Shown here: positions 1,935 through 13,931 of the stretch, piece after piece
How positions within the stretch are numbered: the stretch's first letter is position 1
How the letters are laid out: the number at the start of each line of letters is the position of its first letter
IMG/VR virus record: IMGVR_UViG_3300035698_000684
Location: 1-20,135 of that record
DNA: 20,135 nucleotides
Strand: one strand, 5' to 3'
From: a virus
Made by a program: the position numbers and the translations under genes
Notes under the pieces: model-generated
Database searches by the model: none
Told to the model about the DNA's origin: nothing
Seen by the model: only the letters and a program-made list of their open reading frames with translations

Positions 1935-4144
1935 ATTACGAAGATTACACAAAGATGAGCAGCGAGCGCACTAAGTCACAAGGCGTTAATGATGACATGC
2001 GTGAAAGCTCAAGAGAGCAACTGTACTTTGTTGAAAAAGAAGATGGTCAATGGGAGCCTAGAATCATAGAGCGGATGAGCGGTAAGCCCCGATATACTGA
2101 TGACCGTTGTAATCCTATCCTAGATTCTATCTGCGGTGAAATTGAAGACAATGACTTTGCTATTAAGATATCACCGGCTAGCGGCTCGGCAACTAAAGAA
2201 ACCGCAGAGATATTTGAAGGCTTAATTCGTAACATAGAGAACATAAGCTCAGCTAATCTAATCTATTCAGCCATGGCTCGTATGATGGTTACATGTGGTA
2301 TGTCAGGCATTGAGCTTGAGCAAGGCTATGTAGATGGTGACAGCTTCGACCAAGACCTATTCATTAGAGATGTACCAGACTTTGTAAACCGCGTGTGGTT
2401 TGACCAAGCCAGCGTTAAACAGGACAACTCAGACGCTAGATTTGTATTTATAGATGAGAACATCACAAAAGAAGAGAAGGAAGAAAGGTTCCCTGATAGT
2501 AATGGCGGCTCATTAGGCACAGGCGCTCACAGTGACGCCTACTACGACAAGCCAGATATAATCACAATCAGCCGATGCTATTACAAATACCCCGTTAAGA
2601 TTAAATTAGTACAAATGTCAAACGGCGCAGTATATAAAGATGATGAAGAATTAGCTATGGTCTTTGATGAACTAGCAGCGGCAGGAATTACTATATCAGA
2701 CCGTAGGACTAGAGAATCATTCAAGGTCTACCAGCGTTACATGGATAGCTCAGGATGGTTAGGAGAAGCAGAGGAAACAGTATTTGAAATCCTACCTGTA
2801 TTTGGCTGCTATGCTAATCATAAAGTTATTGAAGGCAAAGCAATTGTTCGCGGTGCTATTGCTAAGGCAATGGATCAACAACGTGTACACAACATGGCAT
2901 TTAGTCGTGAAGTAGAGGAAGTAACATTAAGCCCTAGAGCCAAGTTCTTTGGCACCCCAGAGATGCGCAAAGGCCATGAAAGAACATTCGCATCATTAAA
3001 CACTAACGCTGACCCTTGGCAGGATATAAACCATGACCCAAACATGCCTCAAGGCCCAATATTCATGGGTGGTGCACAGGTTAATCAAGGATTATCACAA
3101 CTCAGCATGATGTCTGCCCAATCAATAGACCTAGCAGCCGGCGCATTTAGCCCAGCACTTGCTAACAATGCCAACCTACAATCAGGCGTAGCATTAGATA
3201 AGCAGATTGAGAAAGCTAATACGTCAACAGTTAAGTACTACAGATCCGTACAAGTCACCCTGACAGCCTTAGCTAAATGTTTAGTTAATTGCATACCTCG
3301 CAGTTATGACGCAACAAGACAGCAGCGCATACTAGGCGAGGATGGCACTGGTGAGATGGTTACGCTTAATGAGGTTATCTTTGACCAGCAAACACAACAG
3401 GAAGTCACCTTAAACGACTTAACCAAAGGTGAGTACGATGCTGCCTGTGATTACGGCCCAGCATTTAAGAGCAGACAAGAGAAAGCCAGCGAAGCATTTG
3501 CCACTATTGCACAACTTGACCCGACTATCATGGAACTTGCTCGCGATGTATGGCTAAGTAACATCAACGAACCAGGTATGAAGTTAGTAGCTGAACGCTC
3601 AAGAGCTATGCAAATTCAGAATGGTGTTATACCTTTCGACCAGTTGACAGGTGAAGAACAGGCGCAGGCACAACAACAAGCCCAGCAGCCACCACAACCT
3701 GATCCAAATATGCTTATAGCTGAAGCTGAAATGGGCAAGGCACAAGCTGAACAAATGAGTGCGCAGACTAAGCAGCAAGAGGCACAAGGTAACTTAGAGC
3801 TTAAATTCAGAACCTTAGAATTGGAGAATAGAAAACTAGGACTAGCAGAGCAAGAGCAGCAATTAGACGTAGCTAAATTCCAACGTGAGAAGGATGATAA
3901 ATACAATGTTGATGCGGCGAATATCCAACAGAACCAAGAAAAAATCGACTTGCAATCACAAAACCAACAGTTCACGCAGATGTTGGCAATGCAAAAACAA
4001 TTGATTGAATCACAAAAAGTCCAAGCTGAAACGCTTAAGGCATTAAAGGATGCTATGGGTGCTGAAGCTATAATGAACCCTAACACTGTTAAGGCTTATG
4101 ATAGTGTGTCTGAAGATATAGTGAAGGAAGACCCGCCTAGCTAG
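1928..4144 (+). CDS. portal protein, P22 gp1-like with long C-terminal helical barrel
   Basis: 738-residue portal, expected to form the dodecameric vertex ring through which DNA enters and leaves. Size (P22 gp1 is about 725 residues), position directly after terL, and the body (for example VPDFVNRVWFDQASV and the ISRCYYKYPVKIKL region) match the P22-type portal family. From about residue 565 the protein becomes Gln/Ala-rich, and residues about 597-713 form one long charged, Gln-rich helix with no proline. This corresponds in place to the barrel that extends the P22 portal into the capsid. Its last codons lie inside the hairpin of a transcription terminator. The next plus-strand structural gene, the scaffold, is displaced by a minus-strand island. 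Confidence 0.92.
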   Translation: MVDYEDYTKMSSERTKSQGVNDDMRESSREQLYFVEKEDGQWEPRIIERMSGKPRYTDDRCNPILDSICGEIEDNDFAIKISPASGSATKETAEIFEGLIRNIENISSANLIYSAMARMMVTCGMSGIELEQGYVDGDSFDQDLFIRDVPDFVNRVWFDQASVKQDNSDARFVFIDENITKEEKEERFPDSNGGSLGTGAHSDAYYDKPDIITISRCYYKYPVKIKLVQMSNGAVYKDDEELAMVFDELAAAGITISDRRTRESFKVYQRYMDSSGWLGEAEETVFEILPVFGCYANHKVIEGKAIVRGAIAKAMDQQRVHNMAFSREVEEVTLSPRAKFFGTPEMRKGHERTFASLNTNADPWQDINHDPNMPQGPIFMGGAQVNQGLSQLSMMSAQSIDLAAGAFSPALANNANLQSGVALDKQIEKANTSTVKYYRSVQVTLTALAKCLVNCIPRSYDATRQQRILGEDGTGEMVTLNEVIFDQQTQQEVTLNDLTKGEYDAACDYGPAFKSRQEKASEAFATIAQLDPTIMELARDVWLSNINEPGMKLVAERSRAMQIQNGVIPFDQLTGEEQAQAQQQAQQPPQPDPNMLIAEAEMGKAQAEQMSAQTKQQEAQGNLELKFRTLELENRKLGLAEQEQQLDVAKFQREKDDKYNVDAANIQQNQEKIDLQSQNQQFTQMLAMQKQLIESQKVQAETLKALKDAMGAEAIMNPNTVKAYDSVSEDIVKEDPPS

Positions 4145-4155
4145 CGGGTTTATCT
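4131..4155. terminator. intrinsic terminator at the portal stop / left end of island 1
   Basis: ACCCGC at 4131-4136 pairs with GCGGGT at 4144-4149 (6-bp stem, 7-base loop CTAGCTA), followed on the plus strand by TTTATCTTT. The portal stop codon (4142-4144) lies in the loop/stem boundary. On the minus strand the hairpin follows the last island gene (stop 4156-4158) and is trailed by a moderately T-rich stretch, so it may act in both directions. The U tract is imperfect, so efficiency is uncertain. Confidence 0.6.
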
Positions 4156-4308
4156 TTAAGGCCAAGTCCAGCTCCAGTTTGGTTTGTGTTGAGGATAAAA
4201 CCAAGGTGGGTGTAATTCAAATCTATAAAGTTCATCATACTTACCCGTAAATACATTAAACCTACACTTTCTGCGAGGCTTAACGGCTTTAGATATTGCG
4301 GGCATCAT
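4156..4308 (-). CDS. small hypothetical protein, last gene of island 1 (50 aa)
   Basis: 50-residue protein beginning MMPAISKAVKPRRK and ending HKPNWSWTWP. It has a basic N-terminal third (KAVKPRRKCR) and an aromatic, proline-rich C-terminus with four Trp and several Tyr/Phe. No family recognised. The start at 4308 overlaps the preceding stop as ATGA and has a strong GGAGGG site 8 bases upstream. An ATG one codon later is also possible. It is the eighth and last gene of the minus-strand chain, ending next to the terminator at 4131-4155. The good ribosome site and the tight junction argue that it is translated. Confidence 0.6.
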   Translation of the reverse strand: MMPAISKAVKPRRKCRFNVFTGKYDELYRFELHPPWFYPQHKPNWSWTWP

Positions 4309-4418
4309 CGAATCACCCTCCAAACAAACTCAGTAACACAAGCTATTATCACACCAATAGCTACACCCATAAAGCCAGCGACTAGATAACCGATAGCGCC
4401 GAATATTAGGAATATCAT
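4305..4418 (-). CDS. single-span membrane peptide, island 1 (37 aa)
   Basis: 37-residue hydrophobic peptide starting MIFLIFGAIG. Residues about 2-29 form one glycine-rich transmembrane segment, followed by a short basic tail (FVWRVIR). It has the best ribosome site of the island: AGGAGG lies 6 bases before the ATG at 4418. The start overlaps the previous stop as ATGA, and the stop overlaps the next start the same way. An alternative ATG 4 bases earlier in another frame would give a 30-residue unrelated peptide; the membrane peptide is preferred because its composition is coherent. Function unknown. Small phage membrane peptides include holin-like, superinfection-exclusion and toxin peptides, and nothing here selects among these. 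Confidence 0.6.
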   Translation of the reverse strand: MIFLIFGAIGYLVAGFMGVAIGVIIACVTEFVWRVIR

Positions 4419-4585
4419 TCATCACCTCCTAAAAACTTAGTTAACTTATCAACATCAGCACCACACTCTTTTATTGCATGGTCTACTAGCATAGTGATTA
4501 CCTTTTCTACATCACCGACTATAATAAATTCTTTATCATGTAACGTGGATGTTTTGTTTATCTGCTTACGTGTGTATTTGTTCAT
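4415..4585 (-). CDS. small acidic hypothetical protein, island 1 (56 aa)
   Basis: 56-residue protein with a basic N-terminus (MNKYTRKQINK), a beta-like EFIIVG stretch, then two amphipathic helices (VEKVITMLVDHAIKE and VDKLTKFL) and an acidic end. No family recognised. An AAAGGAA ribosome site precedes the ATG at 4585. Both ends are ATGA junctions with neighbouring island genes, so it is probably translated as part of the coupled chain. Confidence 0.6.
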   Translation of the reverse strand: MNKYTRKQINKTSTLHDKEFIIVGDVEKVITMLVDHAIKECGADVDKLTKFLGGDE

Positions 4586-4761
4586 AGTGCCATTTCCTTT
4601 TGAATAAAAACTCTAAAGCCAAAAACCTTAATGATTGGTTTTTCATAGCCATAACGCTCGCTAAATAATGCTTTGTTTTTTGGACCTTTAACTTGGAAGA
4701 CTAAGCCTAAAAAGAATACGTTAATAATGCCAGACTCGGCGTAATGGTTTTCAATACTCAT
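4582..4761 (-). CDS. small hypothetical protein, island 1 (59 aa)
   Basis: 59-residue protein starting MSIENHYAES, with a hydrophobic, probably beta-rich core (GIINVFFLGLVFQVKG) and a second beta-like end (PIIKVFGFRVFIQK). The alternation of hydrophobic and polar residues looks more like a small beta fold than a membrane span. No family recognised. AAGGGGGAG precedes the ATG at 4761 with good spacing. ATGA overlaps occur at both ends. Confidence 0.6.
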   Translation of the reverse strand: MSIENHYAESGIINVFFLGLVFQVKGPKNKALFSERYGYEKPIIKVFGFRVFIQKEMAL

Positions 4762-5030
4762 GACTCCCCCTTATATAATCCAGGACGCTTAAACGTAATG
4801 GTATCGTGCCATCCTTTTTTGTTGCTGCAATATCCATCTATAAAGTGACGGCTTGCAATGGCGCGTATCTTCTTTGAAAACGGCTTGAGATACCAAGGGA
4901 TGATTACTTTTGATTCATCGAAACCTGGGAGAAATGAGGTTTCAACCTTACTAAGTACCGACTGGCCTTCCATCTTTTCTATTATCACCTTGCTTATTTG
5001 TCGGGTGTACTTATTATCTACACCATTCAT
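4758..5030 (-). CDS. hypothetical protein, largest gene of island 1 (90 aa)
   Basis: 90-residue, soluble-looking basic protein starting MNGVDNKYTRQISK, with a helical N-terminal third and a C-terminal part containing SRHFIDGYCSNKKGWHDTITF. No family recognised. GGGAGG sits before the ATG at 5030. Both ends are ATGA junctions. A 62-codon ORF on the opposite strand (4858-5046) covers the same DNA but has no ribosome site and breaks the island logic, so this minus-strand gene is preferred. Confidence 0.7.
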   Translation of the reverse strand: MNGVDNKYTRQISKVIIEKMEGQSVLSKVETSFLPGFDESKVIIPWYLKPFSKKIRAIASRHFIDGYCSNKKGWHDTITFKRPGLYKGES

Positions 5031-5200
5031 AACTTATCCTCCCTAATCTTTTCAGCTAAAATCTCGTTAATCTTAAGCATAGCTAAGTATTTTACACGCT
5101 CACCTTTGTAATCTTCATACTTAACATACTCACCTTCTAAAAATTCAATCATTTCAATCTCGCCAGATATAGAGAGAGGGTCATAACGTTTAGCACTCAT
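5027..5200 (-). CDS. small charged helical protein, island 1 (57 aa)
   Basis: 57-residue protein starting MSAKRYDPLS, rich in Glu, Lys and Tyr, with two predicted helices (GEIEMIEFLEGEYVKYEDYK and RVKYLAMLKINEILAEKI). No family recognised. A GGAGG site lies upstream of the ATG at 5200, within the end of the preceding gene. ATGA overlaps occur at both ends. Its size, charge and helical design would suit a small protein-protein interaction factor such as an inhibitor of a host enzyme, but that is only a guess. Confidence 0.62.
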   Translation of the reverse strand: MSAKRYDPLSISGEIEMIEFLEGEYVKYEDYKGERVKYLAMLKINEILAEKIREDKL

Positions 5201-5367
5201 AACCTATCCTCCAATCCATTACAACGGCAAACAAGTTGCTCACGGTGCTTATCTTTAACATTGCGGCATGTTCTACGCCAATCGTTATACTTGATGCCCC
5301 AGTGGTCACAGGCTTGCCATACAGTCCAACCTTTCGAATGGATGATGGTTGTGAATTCACATTTCAT
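5197..5367 (-). CDS. small helix-turn-helix-like protein, island 1 (56 aa)
   Basis: 56-residue Cys/Trp-rich basic protein starting MKCEFTTIIH. Residues about 14-31 (TVWQACDHWGIKYNDWRR) fit a helix-turn-helix pattern: a helix with Ala-Cys, Gly four residues after the Cys, then Ile and a second helix ending in Trp-Arg-Arg. The preceding FTTIIHSKGW resembles the first helix of Cro/XRE-type folds. If this reading is right, it is a DNA-binding regulator, possibly of the island promoters. The start at 5367 forms ATGA with the stop of the first island gene. No clear Shine-Dalgarno site precedes it, so its translation may depend on the upstream gene. Confidence 0.62.
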   Translation of the reverse strand: MKCEFTTIIHSKGWTVWQACDHWGIKYNDWRRTCRNVKDKHREQLVCRCNGLEDRL

Positions 5368-5486
5368 CTACAATAACACTTAACTAAACCAAGCCTTTTA
5401 GCAATTACGCCAACAAGCCAAGCAAATGCCAGCAACCAGAATATGCCGCCTGTGCCTATTAATAAACCAATTACAAAATCACTCAT
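5364..5486 (-). CDS. single-span membrane peptide, first gene of island 1 (40 aa)
   Basis: 40-residue peptide starting MSDFVIGLLI. Residues about 4-29 are hydrophobic and Gly/Trp-containing (one membrane span), followed by a basic, Cys-containing tail (KRLGLVKCYCR). This suggests an inner-membrane peptide with the tail in the cytoplasm. AAGGGG lies 8 bases upstream of the ATG at 5486, directly after the conserved leader hairpin, making this the promoter-proximal gene of the island. It ends in an ATGA junction. No family recognised. Possible roles such as superinfection exclusion or membrane signalling are speculation. Confidence 0.62.
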   Translation of the reverse strand: MSDFVIGLLIGTGGIFWLLAFAWLVGVIAKRLGLVKCYCR

Positions 5487-5500
5487 AAATTACCCCTTAA

Positions 5501-5556
5501 ACATAGGCATATCGCCCATCTATAGTGAACTTAGCAAATCAATTATAATAAGTCAA
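5501..5556. promoter_or_regulatory. divergent promoter/leader element, copy 1
   Basis: Read on the minus strand: TTGACT (-35, 5551-5556), 17-bp spacer, TAAGTT (-10, 5528-5533) preceded by TGC (extended -10), then the leader hairpin at 5503-5519 and the ribosome site of the first island gene. On the plus strand it contains a perfect TATAAT (5544-5549) with a weak candidate -35 (TATAGT, 5521-5526) at 17-bp spacing, facing the scaffold gene. The 56 bp match the second element at 8285-8340 at 44 positions by hand alignment, and both lie between divergent genes. The minus-strand promoter is the stronger prediction; plus-strand activity is inferred. Confidence 0.65.
5503..5519 (-). promoter_or_regulatory. 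conserved leader hairpin, island 1
   Basis: On the minus strand, ATGGGC (5519-5514) can pair with GCCTAT (5508-5503) around a 5-base loop GATAT, with one G-T wobble in the stem. The same stem with a different loop (GTTTT) occurs at 8287-8303. It lies between the predicted start of transcription and the Shine-Dalgarno site, so it could be an RNA regulatory hairpin or a protein-binding site in DNA. Confidence 0.5.
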
Positions 5557-5563
5557 ACATGTA

Positions 5564-5578
5564 CGCGACATTATCGCG
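5564..5578. repeat. inverted repeat in the scaffold leader
   Basis: CGCGA at 5564-5568 and TCGCG at 5574-5578 form a perfect 5-bp inverted repeat with a 5-base spacer CATTA. It sits just downstream of the plus-strand TATAAT and 29 bases upstream of the scaffold ATG. It has no counterpart at the second divergent element. It could be an operator half-site pair or a transcript hairpin; it is short enough to be chance. Confidence 0.35.
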
Positions 5579-5595
5579 GTGTAAAACTACCTTTT

Positions 5596-5600
5596 AAGGG
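5596..5600 (+). promoter_or_regulatory. ribosome binding site that fixes the scaffold start
   Basis: AAGGG lies 7 bases before the ATG at 5608. The longer open frame back to 5443 runs through the divergent promoter and the first island gene and lacks such a site. ATG 5603 is followed at once by a stop codon. Confidence 0.75.
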
Positions 5601-5607
5601 CCATGAG

Positions 5608-6420
5608 ATGAGCGACGAGCTACAAAACGATGAGTATGTTGAAGAAACGGAAACCCAAGACGTACAAACCGAAGAGACTAACGAGAGTGAGTCATCAGAA
5701 TTAGCCGCTGATAGTGACGGAGAACACAAAGAAACCTCCACAGATAGCGAGCAAACGCAAGTTAATCAGGATGCGGTTAACAAAGCGATTGATAGGCAGC
5801 ACCGGAAGTACCAAGACGAGAAGCGTAGAGCGGATGAATTTGAGCGTAGATTAGCTGAACTTCAACCTAAGCAACAAGCGCCTAATGAATTGGAAGCACC
5901 GGATCCGTTTGATGACGATTACGACACCAAACAAAAAGCCTATATCGAATCTATCAGGCAAGCAGAGCGATATAGTTACCAGCAAGAGCAATCTACGCAG
6001 TTAACTAATCAACAGCAAGCCGACAAGCAACAGAGAACGCAAGCTGACCTAAATACTAAGGCCGAGTCATATACTGGCAGAGCTAAAGAGTTTGGGATTA
6101 AACCTGAAGAGTTACAGCAAGCGGGGCAGATGGTAGCCAGTTACGGGCTTAGTGATGATGTAGCCATGTTTATCTTAGAAGATGAGCAAGGGCCATTAAT
6201 TACAAGGCACTTATCGACTAACCACGCTGACGCAGAAAAGATTACAGGCATGACAGCAATGCAAGCAGCCATGTATATCGAGCGTACAGTTAAACCTAAA
6301 GTTGCGGCATTGAAACAAAAGAAAACTAAGACGCCCAGCCCAGCGACGAAGGTTAGCGGTGGTGCTAGTAAAGCTAATAAGCTTGAAGACCACTACTTAC
6401 AAGGCGGGACATTCTCATAA
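5608..6420 (+). CDS. scaffolding protein (P22 gp8-type role)
   Basis: 270-residue protein between portal and coat, the place of the scaffold that guides procapsid assembly and then leaves. Residues 1-50 are strongly acidic and Ser/Thr-rich. Residues about 55-88 form a charged coiled-coil-like helix (KYQDEKRRADEFERRLAEL). A Gln-rich helical middle follows, and the C-terminal region is basic (KPKVAALKQKKTKT, about 229-242) before a flexible end. An acidic extended protein with a basic C-terminal coat-binding tail is the usual scaffold design. The start is chosen by the AAGGG site at 5596-5600. The coat gene follows after 18 bases, so the two are probably co-transcribed. Confidence 0.8.
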   Translation: MSDELQNDEYVEETETQDVQTEETNESESSELAADSDGEHKETSTDSEQTQVNQDAVNKAIDRQHRKYQDEKRRADEFERRLAELQPKQQAPNELEAPDPFDDDYDTKQKAYIESIRQAERYSYQQEQSTQLTNQQQADKQQRTQADLNTKAESYTGRAKEFGIKPEELQQAGQMVASYGLSDDVAMFILEDEQGPLITRHLSTNHADAEKITGMTAMQAAMYIERTVKPKVAALKQKKTKTPSPATKVSGGASKANKLEDHYLQGGTFS

Positions 6421-6438
6421 CTTTAGGAGTAGTCACTC

Positions 6439-7707
6439 ATGGCTAATAATGTAGCAAGTAATTTTACAGAAAAACTAATGCGTAAGGCAATGCCTTACTT
6501 TGAATCACAGCGCGTTCTATCTAAAAACGTGAACACTCAATATGTTGAAGGCGAGTTTGGCCGAGACAGTGGCGACTTTGTATCTGTCACACGTCCACTT
6601 GACCATGCAGCAATCGAAACATCTGACGGTGATTTATCATCTTCTACCACCTCACCAATTATCGCTGGTAAAGCTAAAGCGACCGTCCAAGATTACATCA
6701 CTGTATACATGGATATCAAAGAAGCTAACCAAGCACTAGAATATGCAGACCAAAACCGTTTAACCGAAATCCCAGCAATGAACCGCTTGGTAACTCGCTT
6801 AGAAACTAATTTCGCTAAGTTCGCAATGAAAAACACTTCTTTGCTTGCTGGTACAGTTGGCACAGCCGTTTCAACTTGGGGCCATGTAGCAGGCGCAGCA
6901 GCAGTTGCACGCTCTACCGGTATACCTACTGATAAGCTTTGTTGTTTCCTAAACCCTTATGCTGAAGTGGCATTGGCAGACCAGCAACGTGGCCTAGGTG
7001 TCAACCCTCAAGCTGGCGACGCTAACGCAATGGCAACTATCAAAGAGAACTTTGCTGGTATGAAGGTTATGACCGCAACGACTCTTGGCTCGTACACCAC
7101 CGGCACAGGCGCAGATAGAGCGGGTACATTGTCAGGCACTCCAACTGCAACTTACTTAGCAGCTAAAGATAGTATGACTCAGACCATCTCTGTTACAGCT
7201 TTCCAAGCTAATTTAGTTGTTGCAGCAGGCGAAACCATTACGGTTACAGGTCGTAACAGACTTAATCTATCTACTCGTGAACAGTTCCTAGACGCAGCAG
7301 GCGCCGCAGTATTGTTTAGTGGTACGGTTACTGAGACTGTCACATTGAACGGCTCTGGTGCAGGTGACTTGGTTATTACTGGCCCTGGTATCTTTGAGTC
7401 AGGTGGGGCTTATAACACTGTTGCTTCAGCATTAACCACTGGTGATATCGTTACATTAGGCGGCGCGGCTACTACAGTCATTCAGCCTAACTTGTTCTGG
7501 CATAAAGATGCATTCACAATCGCATCAGTACCAATGGAACGTCTAAGCGCTCAAGATACATTCTTTAAAACGAAGGATGGCTTGCAGGTTCGATGCTCAC
7601 AAGGTTCTGATATCATTGCTAACAAGCAGATTATCAGGTTTGATATTCGCCCAGCGTTCGGTGTAATGAACCCGTTCTTTGCTGGTAAAGTGTTCGGCAC
7701 AGCTTAG
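6439..7707 (+). CDS. major capsid (coat) protein, P22 gp5-like
   Basis: 422-residue coat protein of the HK97 fold, P22 type. Length (P22 gp5 is 430), position after the scaffold, an opening with MANNVASNF and MPYFESQRVLSKNV, the HAAIETSDGDL and MDIKEANQALEYADQNR segments, and the late NLFWHKDAFTIASVPM strand (about 350-365) fit the P22 coat family. Residues about 215-345 are rich in Thr, Val and Gly with beta-type alternation (AGETITVTG, ETVTLNG), and would correspond to an inserted I-domain-like module. AGGAG lies 9 bases upstream. A strong terminator follows 18 bases after the stop, which suits a highly expressed gene. Confidence 0.9.
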   Translation: MANNVASNFTEKLMRKAMPYFESQRVLSKNVNTQYVEGEFGRDSGDFVSVTRPLDHAAIETSDGDLSSSTTSPIIAGKAKATVQDYITVYMDIKEANQALEYADQNRLTEIPAMNRLVTRLETNFAKFAMKNTSLLAGTVGTAVSTWGHVAGAAAVARSTGIPTDKLCCFLNPYAEVALADQQRGLGVNPQAGDANAMATIKENFAGMKVMTATTLGSYTTGTGADRAGTLSGTPTATYLAAKDSMTQTISVTAFQANLVVAAGETITVTGRNRLNLSTREQFLDAAGAAVLFSGTVTETVTLNGSGAGDLVITGPGIFESGGAYNTVASALTTGDIVTLGGAATTVIQPNLFWHKDAFTIASVPMERLSAQDTFFKTKDGLQVRCSQGSDIIANKQIIRFDIRPAFGVMNPFFAGKVFGTA

Positions 7708-7725
7708 TGATTAGCTGATATAAAG

Positions 7726-7750
7726 AAGCCCCTTAATCGGGGCTTTTTTT
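7726..7750. terminator. strong intrinsic terminator after coat / left end of island 2
   Basis: AAGCCCC (7726-7732) pairs with GGGGCTT (7739-7745) around loop TTAATC, followed by an uninterrupted T run to 7750. On the minus strand the same hairpin follows the 119-aa gene and is trailed by TTCTTTAT, so it can serve both convergent transcripts. This is the clearest terminator in the window. Confidence 0.9.
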
Positions 7751-7757
7751 GTGGGTG

Positions 7758-8117
7758 TTATTTTATTTCTATGGTTAGGGAGGAGAGGGCGCATCCAACA
7801 TAAAAATTTTGCCTAGTAAATGAATAAAATCTAATTGCTCCGCAAGAGTAAGAGCAATCTACTTGAAACTCACCTTTAGTTTTAATTTGTAAGTAGTCAG
7901 GGCAAGACGCTGCAATTTCAAAAGGAATTCCATCAGAGTTGCAGCCAATAACAAGCATAATCGCATACCCGCTATCATGCTTGTATTTACTCTTCACGAT
8001 AACCACAGAAGAATAATTTGTTTCATGATTCCAGTTTCTATGAGGCAGTTTTTCATAATCACATCTTTTCATACTGTTAAAAGTCATATTCAGTAAACCC
8101 ATTTCTATATCTACCAT
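7758..8117 (-). CDS. hypothetical six-cysteine protein, island 2 (119 aa)
   Basis: 119-residue soluble-looking protein with six Cys (19, 59, 72, 88, 92, 109), a LPHRNWNHETNYSSVVIV segment near residues 24-41 and beta-type stretches later (YAIMLVIG, FYVGCALSSLTIEIK). No signal peptide or membrane span. C88 and C92 form a CxxxC pair that could bind metal or a disulphide, which is not established. I recognise no named family. The start at 8117 is 3 bases after the stop of the neighbouring 48-aa gene, but its ribosome site is weak; internal ATGs at residues 6, 11 and 16 are alternatives. It ends just before the terminator at 7726-7750. Confidence 0.68.
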   Translation of the reverse strand: MVDIEMGLLNMTFNSMKRCDYEKLPHRNWNHETNYSSVVIVKSKYKHDSGYAIMLVIGCNSDGIPFEIAASCPDYLQIKTKGEFQVDCSYSCGAIRFYSFTRQNFYVGCALSSLTIEIK

Positions 8118-8120
8118 TAA

Positions 8121-8267
8121 TTAGCCATTGCCTAACTTCCTTGCGTACAACCCATACAAAGCATCAGCTTCTTTGTAATCAAAATAAGTAAATTGAGTAA
8201 CTTCACCACAATTTACATCAACAACCTTATCCCCTGCTAATGCTCTTTCTAAATTAAACGGTATCAT
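8121..8267 (-). CDS. small hypothetical phage protein, first gene of island 2 (48 aa)
   Basis: 48-residue protein starting MIPFNLERALAGDKVV. This N-terminus is of a kind seen in many short phage proteins of unknown role, an impression from memory rather than a search. The open frame can be read from an ATG at 8303, but that codon is part of the conserved leader hairpin and lacks a ribosome site. The ATG at 8267 has AGGAAG 5 bases upstream, so it is preferred. It is followed after 3 bases by the six-cysteine gene, forming a two-gene unit driven by the divergent element at 8285-8340. Confidence 0.7.
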   Translation of the reverse strand: MIPFNLERALAGDKVVDVNCGEVTQFTYFDYKEADALYGLYARKLGNG

Positions 8268-8272
8268 TTTAA

Positions 8273-8278
8273 CTTCCT
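8273..8278 (-). promoter_or_regulatory. ribosome binding site that fixes the island 2 first start
   Basis: AGGAAG on the minus strand lies 5 bases before the ATG at 8267. It supports a 48-codon gene in place of the 60-codon version starting in the leader hairpin. Confidence 0.65.
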
Positions 8279-8284
8279 TATATA

Positions 8285-8340
8285 ACATAGGCAAAACGCC
8301 CATCTACATAGACCATAGCAAAGGCTTTATAATAAGGCAA
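8285..8340. promoter_or_regulatory. divergent promoter/leader element, copy 2
   Basis: Minus strand: TTGCCT (-35, 8335-8340), 17-bp spacer, TATGGT (-10, 8312-8317) preceded by TGC (extended -10), then the hairpin at 8287-8303. Plus strand: perfect TATAAT (8328-8333) with a weak candidate -35 (TACATA, 8305-8310), facing the 52-aa gene and the tail-accessory genes. It matches copy 1 (5501-5556) at 44 of 56 positions without gaps; the mismatches fall mainly in the hairpin loop and the spacer. Conservation in two otherwise unrelated intergenic regions argues for function. Confidence 0.68.
8287..8303 (-). promoter_or_regulatory. conserved leader hairpin, island 2
   Basis: ATGGGC (8303-8298) pairs with GCCTAT (8292-8287) on the minus strand around a GTTTT loop. 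Stem bases are identical to copy 1 while three of the loop bases differ or shift in type, the pattern expected of a maintained hairpin. It lies just before the AGGAAG ribosome site. Confidence 0.5.
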
Positions 8341-8363: not shown

Positions 8364-8522
8364 ATGTCTGAAACCTTCACTATGTATAAAAAAGACGGCA
8401 CAAAAGTAGAGGTTTCAGAGCCATCTATTACAGCCGCTCTAAAGCTAGGCTGGACTGATACGGCACCAACACAACCAAAGGCTAATAAAAATGTCAAGAA
8501 CCGCTCAAACACTGGTAAGTGA
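8364..8522 (+). CDS. small hypothetical protein upstream of the tail-accessory gene (52 aa)
   Basis: 52-residue protein starting MSETFTMYKKDGTKVEVSEP and continuing ITAALKLGWTDTAP. A short beta-hairpin-like N-terminus is followed by a helix and a Lys/Asn/Pro-rich tail. Proteins of this style (a YKKDGT...V turn then ALxLGW) often lie between coat and head-completion genes in podophages, a remark from general familiarity. It overlaps the next gene by 32 bp. A weak GAG-type ribosome site precedes the ATG. It is the first plus-strand gene after the divergent element, so it would lead that transcript. Confidence 0.65.
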   Translation: MSETFTMYKKDGTKVEVSEPSITAALKLGWTDTAPTQPKANKNVKNRSNTGK

Positions 8523-11548: not shown

Positions 11549-12090
11549 TGAGTATTATTAAAGATACATTTTTTGGCGGCGCAGAGAAGAAAGCGGCTCA
11601 AGCAACTGAGCGCGGATTAGAGCGGTCTATTGAAGCCATGCGCGTGGGTGCGGATAGGGCTAGGGGTGAGATAATGGATCTCTATCCCGCTGCTGAAGAA
11701 AGTATGAGGCAAGGCTCTCAAGGCGCGCTTGATGTCATGGGTCAATTCCTGCCCCAGCAAGCTAATGTGTTTCAACAAGGCAACATGAATGCCCAAGGAC
11801 AACTTGCAGCCGGATTACCTCAAATACAAAACGCATTAATGGGAGGGGCGGTTGATTATTCACAATTCCAACCTCAACAAATAAACTTTGATCGAGGTGT
11901 ATTTAACCAGCAGTTGCCACAAATGCAAACTAGCCAGCAAGCTTTAAACCCAGAACCCGCGACGCCTCAAGGTGGCGCAATGGGGCCATTTCAAGGATTT
12001 AACGCTAATTCATTCTTAGGTGGCGGGTTTGGCTCTGGCGGCCCGTTTAATGGAAGTACATTCGGGCAAAATATGAGGATTAGACAATGA
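11548..12090 (+). CDS. putative ejection/internal virion protein (gp7-position, 180 aa)
   Basis: 180-residue protein starting MSIIKDTFFGGAEKKAAQ. A basic Ala/Arg-rich helical N-terminal half (ERGLERSIEAMRVGADRARGEI) is followed by a Gln/Pro/Asn/Gly-rich, probably disordered half. It occupies the place of P22 gp7, the first of three proteins ejected with the DNA. GAGGG lies 7 bases upstream of the TAATG start at 11548, which is preferred over the in-frame ATG at 11518. The stop overlaps the next gene's start as ATGA. The assignment rests on position and composition. Confidence 0.68.
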   Translation: MSIIKDTFFGGAEKKAAQATERGLERSIEAMRVGADRARGEIMDLYPAAEESMRQGSQGALDVMGQFLPQQANVFQQGNMNAQGQLAAGLPQIQNALMGGAVDYSQFQPQQINFDRGVFNQQLPQMQTSQQALNPEPATPQGGAMGPFQGFNANSFLGGGFGSGGPFNGSTFGQNMRIRQ

Positions 12091-13931
12091 CACCACCTAA
12101 TAGCGCATTAAGAAGAATACGCCCAACTAATATGATGCGTGGCCATGAATTAATGTCTGGAGCTGCTCAACAGGCTATGGGTGTTAATAACTTGTCTCAG
12201 CAAGCATTATCAGGACAGATGATGGATGCTAACTTACAAAGACCACAGATAGGTGCACCACCTCAAAACCAAATGGCAGTACCTACAATGCAGACTCAAC
12301 AGCAGCCAATGGGCAACGTCGCACAAGCGCCACAACAGGCCGTCCCAGTTGGTGGATCGCAAAACTACGGATTGGCCGGTGCGGAATCTGCCTTCGCTGG
12401 TGGATTGCAAGGGGGGCTTGGTGCATTACAAGGCGCAACCCAACAAGGCCTAGGGCTTTTAGAAGGGACTGGTAACTTTGGATTAGGGCAAATAGGCCAA
12501 GGCTCTCAGAATGCTATGGGTACATTGCAGCAAGCAGGGCAGCAAGGCACATCAGCAATAAATCAAGGCGCTGGACAAGGTTTAAATATTCTTAGCTCTG
12601 GTGCTAATCTAGCTCAGAATAGAATTGGTGCTGGTAATCAAATGGCTCAGGGGAACTTGCGTCAAGGCATGAACGCTTCAAATAATATGTTTAATCAAGG
12701 GGTTGGCGCATTAGGTGGTAATTTTGGAGCATCTGCTGGAAATGTAAATACCGCGACCGGTCAAGAGCAATTTAACCAAGCCGCTCAAGGTGTTGGTGCT
12801 TTCGCTGGTGGAGGGTTACAATCTCAACAACAGCAGTTAGCTTTATCAGGCTCACAAGGTCAAGAAGCATTCGACAATGCAATGCGCAACAACCCAGGCA
12901 CTCAGTTCTTACAAGATGAGATGATGAACGCTGTCACCAATCAAGGTTCAGCAACGGGTAATATTGTAAGCGGCAACATCCTTAGAGAACTTCAAGACAG
13001 AAGTGCAGGCATAGCGGCGCAAGACCTAAATAACCAGTTTAATAGAGCATTCCAAACCACTGGACAAGGACTTCAAGCCGCTGGTCAACAAGGTCAGTTT
13101 TTAGCACAGGCAGGCCAGCAACAAGGGCAGCTTGCAGGGCAGAATGCTCAAATGCAAACACAGGCTAATATTGCCAGTGCTAGTAATAGACTGAACGCAG
13201 CACAAGGTCGAGCTAACCTAATGGGTCAGAACGCTAATAACATATCGAATATGTTTAGCCAAGGCGCAGGGTTTAACCAGCAAGCAGGAATGGCGCAAGC
13301 TGACGCAGTTCAAAACGCAGCAAATCAAGGCGCGGGAATATCTCAAAACTCAGGATTGAACAGAGCTAATCTATTAAGCGCATTAGGTGGTCAAGGCGCG
13401 GGCATTCAAACTAACTCAGGAATGAACCAAGCTAATTTTGGTGCTCAACTAGCAGGGCAAGGCGCTCAAATGCTAGGCAATGCAGGACAGCAAGCGGCGG
13501 GCATGTTCCAGAACACTGGACAAATGTTAGGCGGCGCTAGAAACCAAGCTGGTAGAGATTTGGCCAATTCCATATCTAACGCATCGCAAGGAATGTCGGG
13601 GCTGCAATCCGATCAAGGCGCAGGCTTAGAAAGCATCTTAGCTCAAGGTGGAACTAACATATCTAACCTAATTGCTAATTACGGACAGATGAACTCACAA
13701 CAACAAGAGGAACTTGCTAGAATGCTTGCTAATTTATCGGTAGGGCAGGCCACTCAGGCGGGTAATGCGCAAGCCAATATTGGCAACGCTCAAGCTGGTG
13801 GTATAATAGGCAGAGCTTCGGGGATACGCGCCGGAGTGGGGCAAGTTGCTGGTGCAATAGCTGGTGCCTACGGTGCGCCTCCGGGTCTTACTAGTTCTGC
13901 AATGGGCGCTTTGTCCGGTTTCGGCGGTTAA
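12087..13931 (+). CDS. Gln/Gly/Ala/Asn-rich ejection protein with tandem 22-residue repeats (gp20-position)
   Basis: 614-residue low-complexity protein; Gln, Gly, Ala and Asn dominate throughout. The middle (TNQGSATGNIVSGNILREL followed by AGIAAQDLNNQFNRAF, about 287-325) resembles a segment seen in many podophage DNA-transfer proteins. Residues about 391-480 contain tandem repeats of 22 residues (QGAG...NQA...). The last 45 residues are Gly/Ala-rich and weakly hydrophobic (VGQVAGAIAGAYG), possibly membrane-active. In P22 this slot holds gp20, which enters the host envelope with DNA. Repeats of 22 residues equal two hendecads, which suits long amphipathic helices. Starts in an ATGA junction. 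Confidence 0.7.
   Translation: MTPPNSALRRIRPTNMMRGHELMSGAAQQAMGVNNLSQQALSGQMMDANLQRPQIGAPPQNQMAVPTMQTQQQPMGNVAQAPQQAVPVGGSQNYGLAGAESAFAGGLQGGLGALQGATQQGLGLLEGTGNFGLGQIGQGSQNAMGTLQQAGQQGTSAINQGAGQGLNILSSGANLAQNRIGAGNQMAQGNLRQGMNASNNMFNQGVGALGGNFGASAGNVNTATGQEQFNQAAQGVGAFAGGGLQSQQQQLALSGSQGQEAFDNAMRNNPGTQFLQDEMMNAVTNQGSATGNIVSGNILRELQDRSAGIAAQDLNNQFNRAFQTTGQGLQAAGQQGQFLAQAGQQQGQLAGQNAQMQTQANIASASNRLNAAQGRANLMGQNANNISNMFSQGAGFNQQAGMAQADAVQNAANQGAGISQNSGLNRANLLSALGGQGAGIQTNSGMNQANFGAQLAGQGAQMLGNAGQQAAGMFQNTGQMLGGARNQAGRDLANSISNASQGMSGLQSDQGAGLESILAQGGTNISNLIANYGQMNSQQQEELARMLANLSVGQATQAGNAQANIGNAQAGGIIGRASGIRAGVGQVAGAIAGAYGAPPGLTSSAMGALSGFGG
13260..13523 (+). repeat. four tandem degenerate 66-bp units inside the ejection gene
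   Basis: CAAGGCGC-type starts recur exactly every 66 bases at 13260, 13326, 13392 and 13458, in frame, so each unit encodes 22 residues beginning QGAG or QGAQ. The second and third units are the most alike (CAAGGCGCGGG...AACTCAGGA...GCTAAT). The period is lost after the fourth unit. The pattern is coding duplication, not a CRISPR or origin. Confidence 0.75.

Follow-up and report, generated by a model that had tools for sequence, protein, structure and literature searches.

The mRNA leaders of scaffolding protein genes in many P22-type phages carry two covarying, crossing helices at a constant position upstream of the start codon, a pattern that is well supported by the leader sequences compared here and that corresponds to a candidate H-type pseudoknot. 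This pseudoknot probably controls the amount of scaffolding protein made. In the phage DNA that we analysed (20,135 nt of IMG/VR record IMGVR_UViG_3300035698_000684, hereafter the window), the pseudoknot lies immediately beyond one copy of a 56-bp element which occurs twice among the head genes and which, as read from its sequence and conservation, is a genuine overlapping, back-to-back, two-way promoter pair. A two-way promoter element joined to a pseudoknot acting as a translational operator of the scaffold gene is the best overall explanation that we can offer, and one towards which we lean.

Head module and minus-strand islands

The window encodes a P22-type head module, with portal, scaffold and coat genes in that order and Pfam matches to P22_portal, P22_CoatProtein, P22_Tail-4 and Phage_stabilise within the 20 kb fragment (PF16510, 1.3e-121; PF11651, 1.9e-44; PF11650; PF11134). 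Among named phages, Pseudoalteromonas phage vB_PspP-H6/1 (H6/1) is the closest relative. Among the related loci compared, which are designated by L-numbers (L024 and L011 are the same relative), L003 is a near-identical strain. The scaffold-coat pair is flanked by terminator-like hairpins (Table 1), and terminators like the one after the coat gene also follow coat in many relatives. Further along the window, a long Q/G/A/N-rich protein with internal repeats (12087-13931) is one of the putative ejection proteins.

Two groups of small minus-strand genes, here called islands, are located among the head genes. No useful Pfam match or confident PHROG match was obtained for the island proteins; one of them gave weak hits in Vibrio phages by tblastn. 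The islands share the features of morons, having their own promoter (its activity is predicted from sequence only), a variable position among relatives and non-morphogenetic genes. A small gene with a product beginning MNKYTRKQIN (4415-4585, minus strand) recurs in portal/scaffold islands whose other genes differ between phages, including the portal-scaffold gap of L005/L037 and L024 (8284-8454). At island 2, three small minus-strand ORFs (L020, 11461-11649 and 11653-11832; L023, 11527-11793) share about 26 identical first residues (MKPHIKVIQRNGVDIFVTSSMTMKET); their C-terminal tails differ, and two of them are in tandem.

Table 1. Features of the head module, the 56-bp element and the scaffold leader in the window.
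Feature	Position	Strand	Details
Terminator-like hairpin over portal stop	4130..4152	+	AGACCCGC-CTAGCTA-GCGGGTTT, followed by a T-rich stretch
Island 1, about 8 small ORFs	4156..5486	-	Membership varies among relatives
Element copy 1, overlapping back-to-back promoter pair	5501..5556		Between island 1 (-) and scaffold-coat unit (+); identity with copy 2; orthologues in L020, L021/L023, L024
Near-dyad ATGGGC-N5-GCCTAT at minus start, copy 1	5503..5519	-	5'-end hairpin or operator; absent from the preliminary description
Predicted minus promoter, copy 1	5528..5556	-	TTGACT (5556-5551), 17 bp, TGC + TAAGTT (5533-5528)
Predicted plus -10 box TATAAT, scaffold-coat transcription unit	5544..5549	+	Invariant in 7 element copies
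Candidate H-type pseudoknot	5559..5578	+	S1 AUG (5559-5561)/CAU (5569-5571); L1 UA; S2 CGCGA (5564-5568)/UCGCG (5574-5578); L3 UA
Scaffolding protein gene, 270 aa	5608..6420	+	37% with annotated H6/1 scaffold; between P22_portal and P22_CoatProtein genes
Coat protein gene	6439..7707	+	Pfam P22_CoatProtein, 1.9e-44
Strong terminator 3' of coat gene	7723..7748	+	Minus-strand face also seen
Island 2, two small ORFs	7758..8303	-	Other genes in L020 and L024 beneath the same element
Element copy 2	8285..8340		Between island 2 (-) and gene at 8364 (+); orthologue in L020, diverged one in L024
Near-dyad ATGGGC-N5-GCCTAT, copy 2	8287..8303	-	Folds as a 6-bp hairpin
Predicted minus promoter, copy 2	8312..8340	-	TTGCCT (8340-8335), 17 bp, TGC + TATGGT (8317-8312)
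Predicted plus TATAAT, copy 2	8328..8333	+	For genes beyond the coat terminator; kept in W2, L20_2, L24_2

Crossing helices in the scaffold leader

The plus-strand transcript from element copy 1 is predicted to start at about position 5556 and opens into the 5' leader of the scaffolding gene. Directly downstream of the plus -10 box, and 49 nt 5' of the scaffold start, lies CAUGUACGCGACAUUAUCGCGG, a piece which is retained in relatives that have no remaining similarity to the 56-bp element. About 50 of the 72 distinct leaders have the same crossing helices at an unchanged distance from the scaffold start, mostly at -41 to -55 nt. They are present in the window group, H6/1, Vibrio phages 234P9 and FGH, Shewanella X14, Thalassomonas BA3 and many metagenomic relatives; the portals of X14, FGH and BA3 are 27-28% identical to that of the window. 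In other phages stem 1 reads ACUG/CAGU, GGG/CCC, AACC/GGUU or ACCG/CGGU, and stem 2 reads CGUGA/UCACG, CUUGA/UCAAG, CUCGA/UCGAG, CUGGG/CCCAG, CCAGUG/CACUGG, CCCGUG/CACGGG or CUGAUG/CAUCAG. Among the curated parses, 36 different sequence pairs form S1 and 26 form S2; L1 is mostly 2 nt long (mostly UA), L2 is 0 and L3 is 1-5.

The knot is also plausible in Kapi1-type, APSE-7, Arsenophonus, Yersinia and Skarpretter leaders, where variation is limited; the Kapi1-type leaders (80 IMG/VR loci) are knot-compatible, almost invariant and add little covariation. In the leaders of P22's own group (phage L, ESNIH1 and Pantoea), the full knot is unconvincing and only a 4-bp hairpin remains. P22 and phage L were not accepted as full members: phage L gives a weak 4+4 fit to the descriptor used below, and stem 2 is disrupted in the related ESNIH1 leader. 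Searches against Rfam 15 gave no match in the window, none with E<=5 for 5480-5680 and none in 16 related loci. In L116, the pseudoknot is directly preceded by a strong terminator-like hairpin, and no clear promoter separates the two.

We searched the 75 nt 5' of 72 distinct scaffold genes using a knot descriptor based on stacking energy. At -12 kcal/mol or below, the descriptor was satisfied by 58 of the 72 scaffold leaders, compared to 10% of dinucleotide shuffles and 7 of the 72 coat leaders of these loci. A cut-off of -14 kcal/mol or below gave 46 of 72, 4.1% and 2 of 72, respectively. Because the descriptor may choose the wrong parse in single leaders, we also used a fixed-frame test which ignores complementarity and is anchored on the 5' strand of stem 2 and the two bases before it. 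All three inner S1 pairs were formed in 28 of 37 anchored leaders, decoys included, compared to 9.8% across mismatched sequences. The other nine mostly have visible decoy anchors (e.g., BA3-type leaders, in which the true stem 2 is CCAGUG).

Covariation was assessed in a selected set of 28 leaders, from which decoys had been dropped after inspection and in which L052 had been re-anchored by hand. In this fixed-frame alignment 90.2% of cells are paired and both-sided changes occur in seven of the eight pairs. The covariation score of these 28 leaders was 0.546, compared to 0.124 +/- 0.025 for shuffled alignments (0/500) and at most 0.145 when the partners were slid. The leaders thus contain two crossing helices with compensatory changes, as in an H-type pseudoknot. 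Single-structure folding, which is blind to pseudoknots, did not find the window leader to be more stable than shuffles, and none of three leaders showed an excess. A conserved hairpin at the ribosome site was rejected as a scaffold-specific on/off platform, being found before 32 of 48 scaffold genes and 31 of 46 coat genes.

A structured leader that is held at a constant place before one gene, with compensatory change across diverged phages, is most simply explained as cis-acting control of the scaffold. A -10-like box is located 5-14 nt 5' of the knot in most of 39 leaders, which places the knot at or near the 5' end of the mRNA. This location, at or beside the predicted 5' end, would also suit a leader RNA that acts as a stability element or as a two-hairpin switch instead of a protein-bound pseudoknot, and the crossing helices may also be mutually exclusive hairpins. 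However, the knot persists in L098 and Kapi1, where there is no good promoter box just before it, so that the constant part is the RNA and not the promoter, and the loop lengths suit an H-type pseudoknot. We consider a stability element or hairpin switch to be rather unlikely, and prefer a pseudoknot that controls the scaffold gene in cis.

An overlapping promoter pair at two junctions

The two copies of the element align without gaps at 44 of 56 positions, as reported in a preliminary description of the window. A repeat search widens the match to 5500-5556 and 8284-8340, and the likeness ends abruptly at either edge. The element core, CATAGGCNNNNCGCCCATCTA, is found twice in the window (0.03 expected by chance, <=3 mismatches) and not in shuffled sequence. 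The position of both copies between divergent genes, the minus-strand hexamers with their 17-bp spacers and TGC extensions, and the plus TATAAT inside each minus spacer are all as first described. The same description called the promoters face-to-face, which is incorrect; they point apart, and are arranged back-to-back and overlap. A bare -35/-10 match is not significant on its own, with 15.6% of shuffles scoring equally well, and the weight of the match comes from its conservation in relatives.

Further copies were sought using a degenerate pattern and a portal-protein scan of relatives, a search of the kind that the preliminary description had recommended. With those of the window, there are seven distinct copies in four genomes, all at the same two junctions; the relatives have it at portal/scaffold in L020, L021/L023 and L024, and after coat in L020 and, in diverged form, L024. 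No further copies were found in the rest of the 33-34 kb element-bearing records (L020 and L024). The element is thus specific to these junctions, and we rejected the idea that it is a general early promoter.

In all seven copies TATTATAA, corresponding to the plus TATAAT, is invariant inside the minus spacer, while adjacent spacer bases vary. A TTG-type -35, TTTGC(T/C)A or TGCTAAGTT, TAGAT and the arms ATRGGC-N5-GCCTAT also persist, and the minus -35/extended -10 and downstream dyad are kept closely or loosely in every copy. The copy-1 arrangement of TTGACT, 17-bp spacer and extended TAAGTT is identical in the window, L020, L021 and L024, and the copy-2 minus promoter is related yet drifted in L020 and L024. 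Relatives without the element retain a -10-like box at the same site 5' of the scaffold gene; together with the invariant TATTATAA, this bears out the earlier proposal that two promoters share DNA at both sites. L025 likewise has TATAAT at the copy-2 junction, where it has no island. In L035 and L036, where the sequence is unrelated, a perfect TTGACA on the minus strand directly adjoins the plus -10 shortly before the pseudoknot, which suggests that the promoter overlap itself recurs.

The preliminary description would, by its own terms, be refuted if close relatives that keep the islands lacked the element at the same place. This is partly the case: the close relative L025 has a minus-strand island at the portal/scaffold junction without the element, and H6/1 likewise has an island without it, so that the element is not required for an island. 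Where the element is present, gene content beneath it differs between phages, and it acts like a constant promoter above an exchangeable set of accessory genes.

The constancy of the element above changing genes could mean that it is merely a moron promoter cassette, i.e., a strong host-type promoter that was duplicated together with accessory genes, in which the plus TATAAT is incidental. Such a history would agree with the details shared by position-orthologous copies, which place the duplication before the split of the window and L020. An incidental TATAAT would not be expected to remain invariant in seven copies beside varying spacer bases, nor a -10-like box to be retained in relatives without the element, and we regard this explanation as unlikely.

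The near-dyad located just downstream of the minus start has conserved arms (ATRGGC and GCCTAT) and a variable centre across the seven copies, although L24_2 is broken and keeps the inner part only. The 17-bp dyad overlaps the minus start in six of the seven copies, as would be expected of an operator at which a phage repressor keeps the islands silent or on. We are doubtful of this role, as the L020 and L024 records (33-34 kb) contain no other close sites and a hairpin at the 5' end of the mRNA fits equally well. In both window copies the dyad opens with ATG; in copy 1 this reads MGDMPMFKG* (5490-5519, minus strand), and at copy 2 (8264-8303, minus strand) and in L024 it shares the reading frame of the first island gene. 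This ATG may thus begin a leader peptide or provide an alternative start.

Overlap should allow one polymerase at a time on each site, making competition plausible, but an either/or switch in which island and structural promoters exclude each other seems improbable to us: the overlap of the plus -10 with the minus -35/spacer is retained in seven copies and appears to recur in L035 and L036, yet the islands of L025 and H6/1 exist without the element, the plus -35 is poor in element-bearing phages and may call for an activator instead of competition, and the islands yielded no recognisable feedback gene.

A model for control of scaffold synthesis

Under the explanation that we favour, a two-way promoter element with a scaffold operator, the minus side of the element would drive the morons, variable accessory genes that were inserted among the head genes as short operons. 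On the plus side, copy 1 would drive scaffold and coat as a transcription unit of their own, preceded by a terminator-like hairpin and followed by a terminator. This mRNA would open with the pseudoknot, about 49 nt 5' of the scaffold start codon. Either free scaffolding protein or a complex that reports on capsid assembly would bind the knot, and the ligand-bound knot would block ribosome loading, such that the supply of scaffold tracks assembly. We infer intracellular folding of the RNA into a pseudoknot, control of translation by this structure, and the identity of its ligand as the scaffold. The location of the knot in the mRNA leader, 5' of the start codon, is one part of what characterises such an operator. 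Counting against it, the P22 group, in which scaffold autoregulation has been reported, is without the full knot.

Scaffolding protein acts transiently and is then reused, and in P22 its synthesis has long been said to be adjusted to assembly through a signal in the mRNA. A covarying knot that heads the scaffold mRNAs of many P22-type phages would represent a concrete, mutable target for this assembly-coupling signal. We found no description of a scaffold-gene pseudoknot in the literature searched; absence from Rfam and these papers is not proof of novelty.

Comparison with known systems

The PeSL of T4 are mobile promoter/stem-loop cassettes, repeated and tied to gene cassettes. The element described here similarly combines a repeated promoter and stem-loop with gene cassettes, but its stem-loop is downstream of the promoter and it reads in both directions. 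The ant moron of P22-like phages is also a variable, independently expressed gene group within the late operon, and morons in those phages have been seen only between genes 16 and 9 and nowhere else in the morphogenetic cluster (PMC2629481). In contrast, the islands here are located at the portal/scaffold and coat/tail-accessory junctions and have one promoter sequence common to both. The element illustrates a way for accessory genes to be accommodated within a head operon, namely by using promoter DNA that also serves the operon.

King, Casjens and co-workers reportedly found that the P22 scaffold (gene 8) lowers its own synthesis post-transcriptionally when it is not engaged in assembly. The gene family and position are the same as here, and assembly-coupled post-transcriptional control would fit the scaffold knot. 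By analogy, the knot may be the missing RNA target of this autoregulation. Unlike the leaders described above, however, those of the P22 group have no convincing stem 1, and in P22 the target could have a smaller or different fold.

In T4, gp32 binds a pseudoknot lying 67 nt 5' of the gene 32 start codon and thereby represses its own translation, described in a 2010 review as possibly the sole viral case of a pseudoknot in translational autoregulation (PMC3014915). As in gene 32 of T4, T2 and RB69, the scaffold leaders have a predicted H-type pseudoknot tens of nucleotides before the start of an abundant phage protein, and thus a candidate autogenous operator (PMC3014915). The two differ in sequence, in phage group and in gene (an ssDNA-binding protein versus a scaffold), and the operator here is proposed by analogy; the scaffold knot spans widely diverged head modules. 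We tentatively raise the possibility that this widespread family of mRNA pseudoknots is the RNA target that couples scaffold translation to assembly in P22-type phages, which would make it the second phage example of autoregulation through a pseudoknot, after gene 32 of T4.
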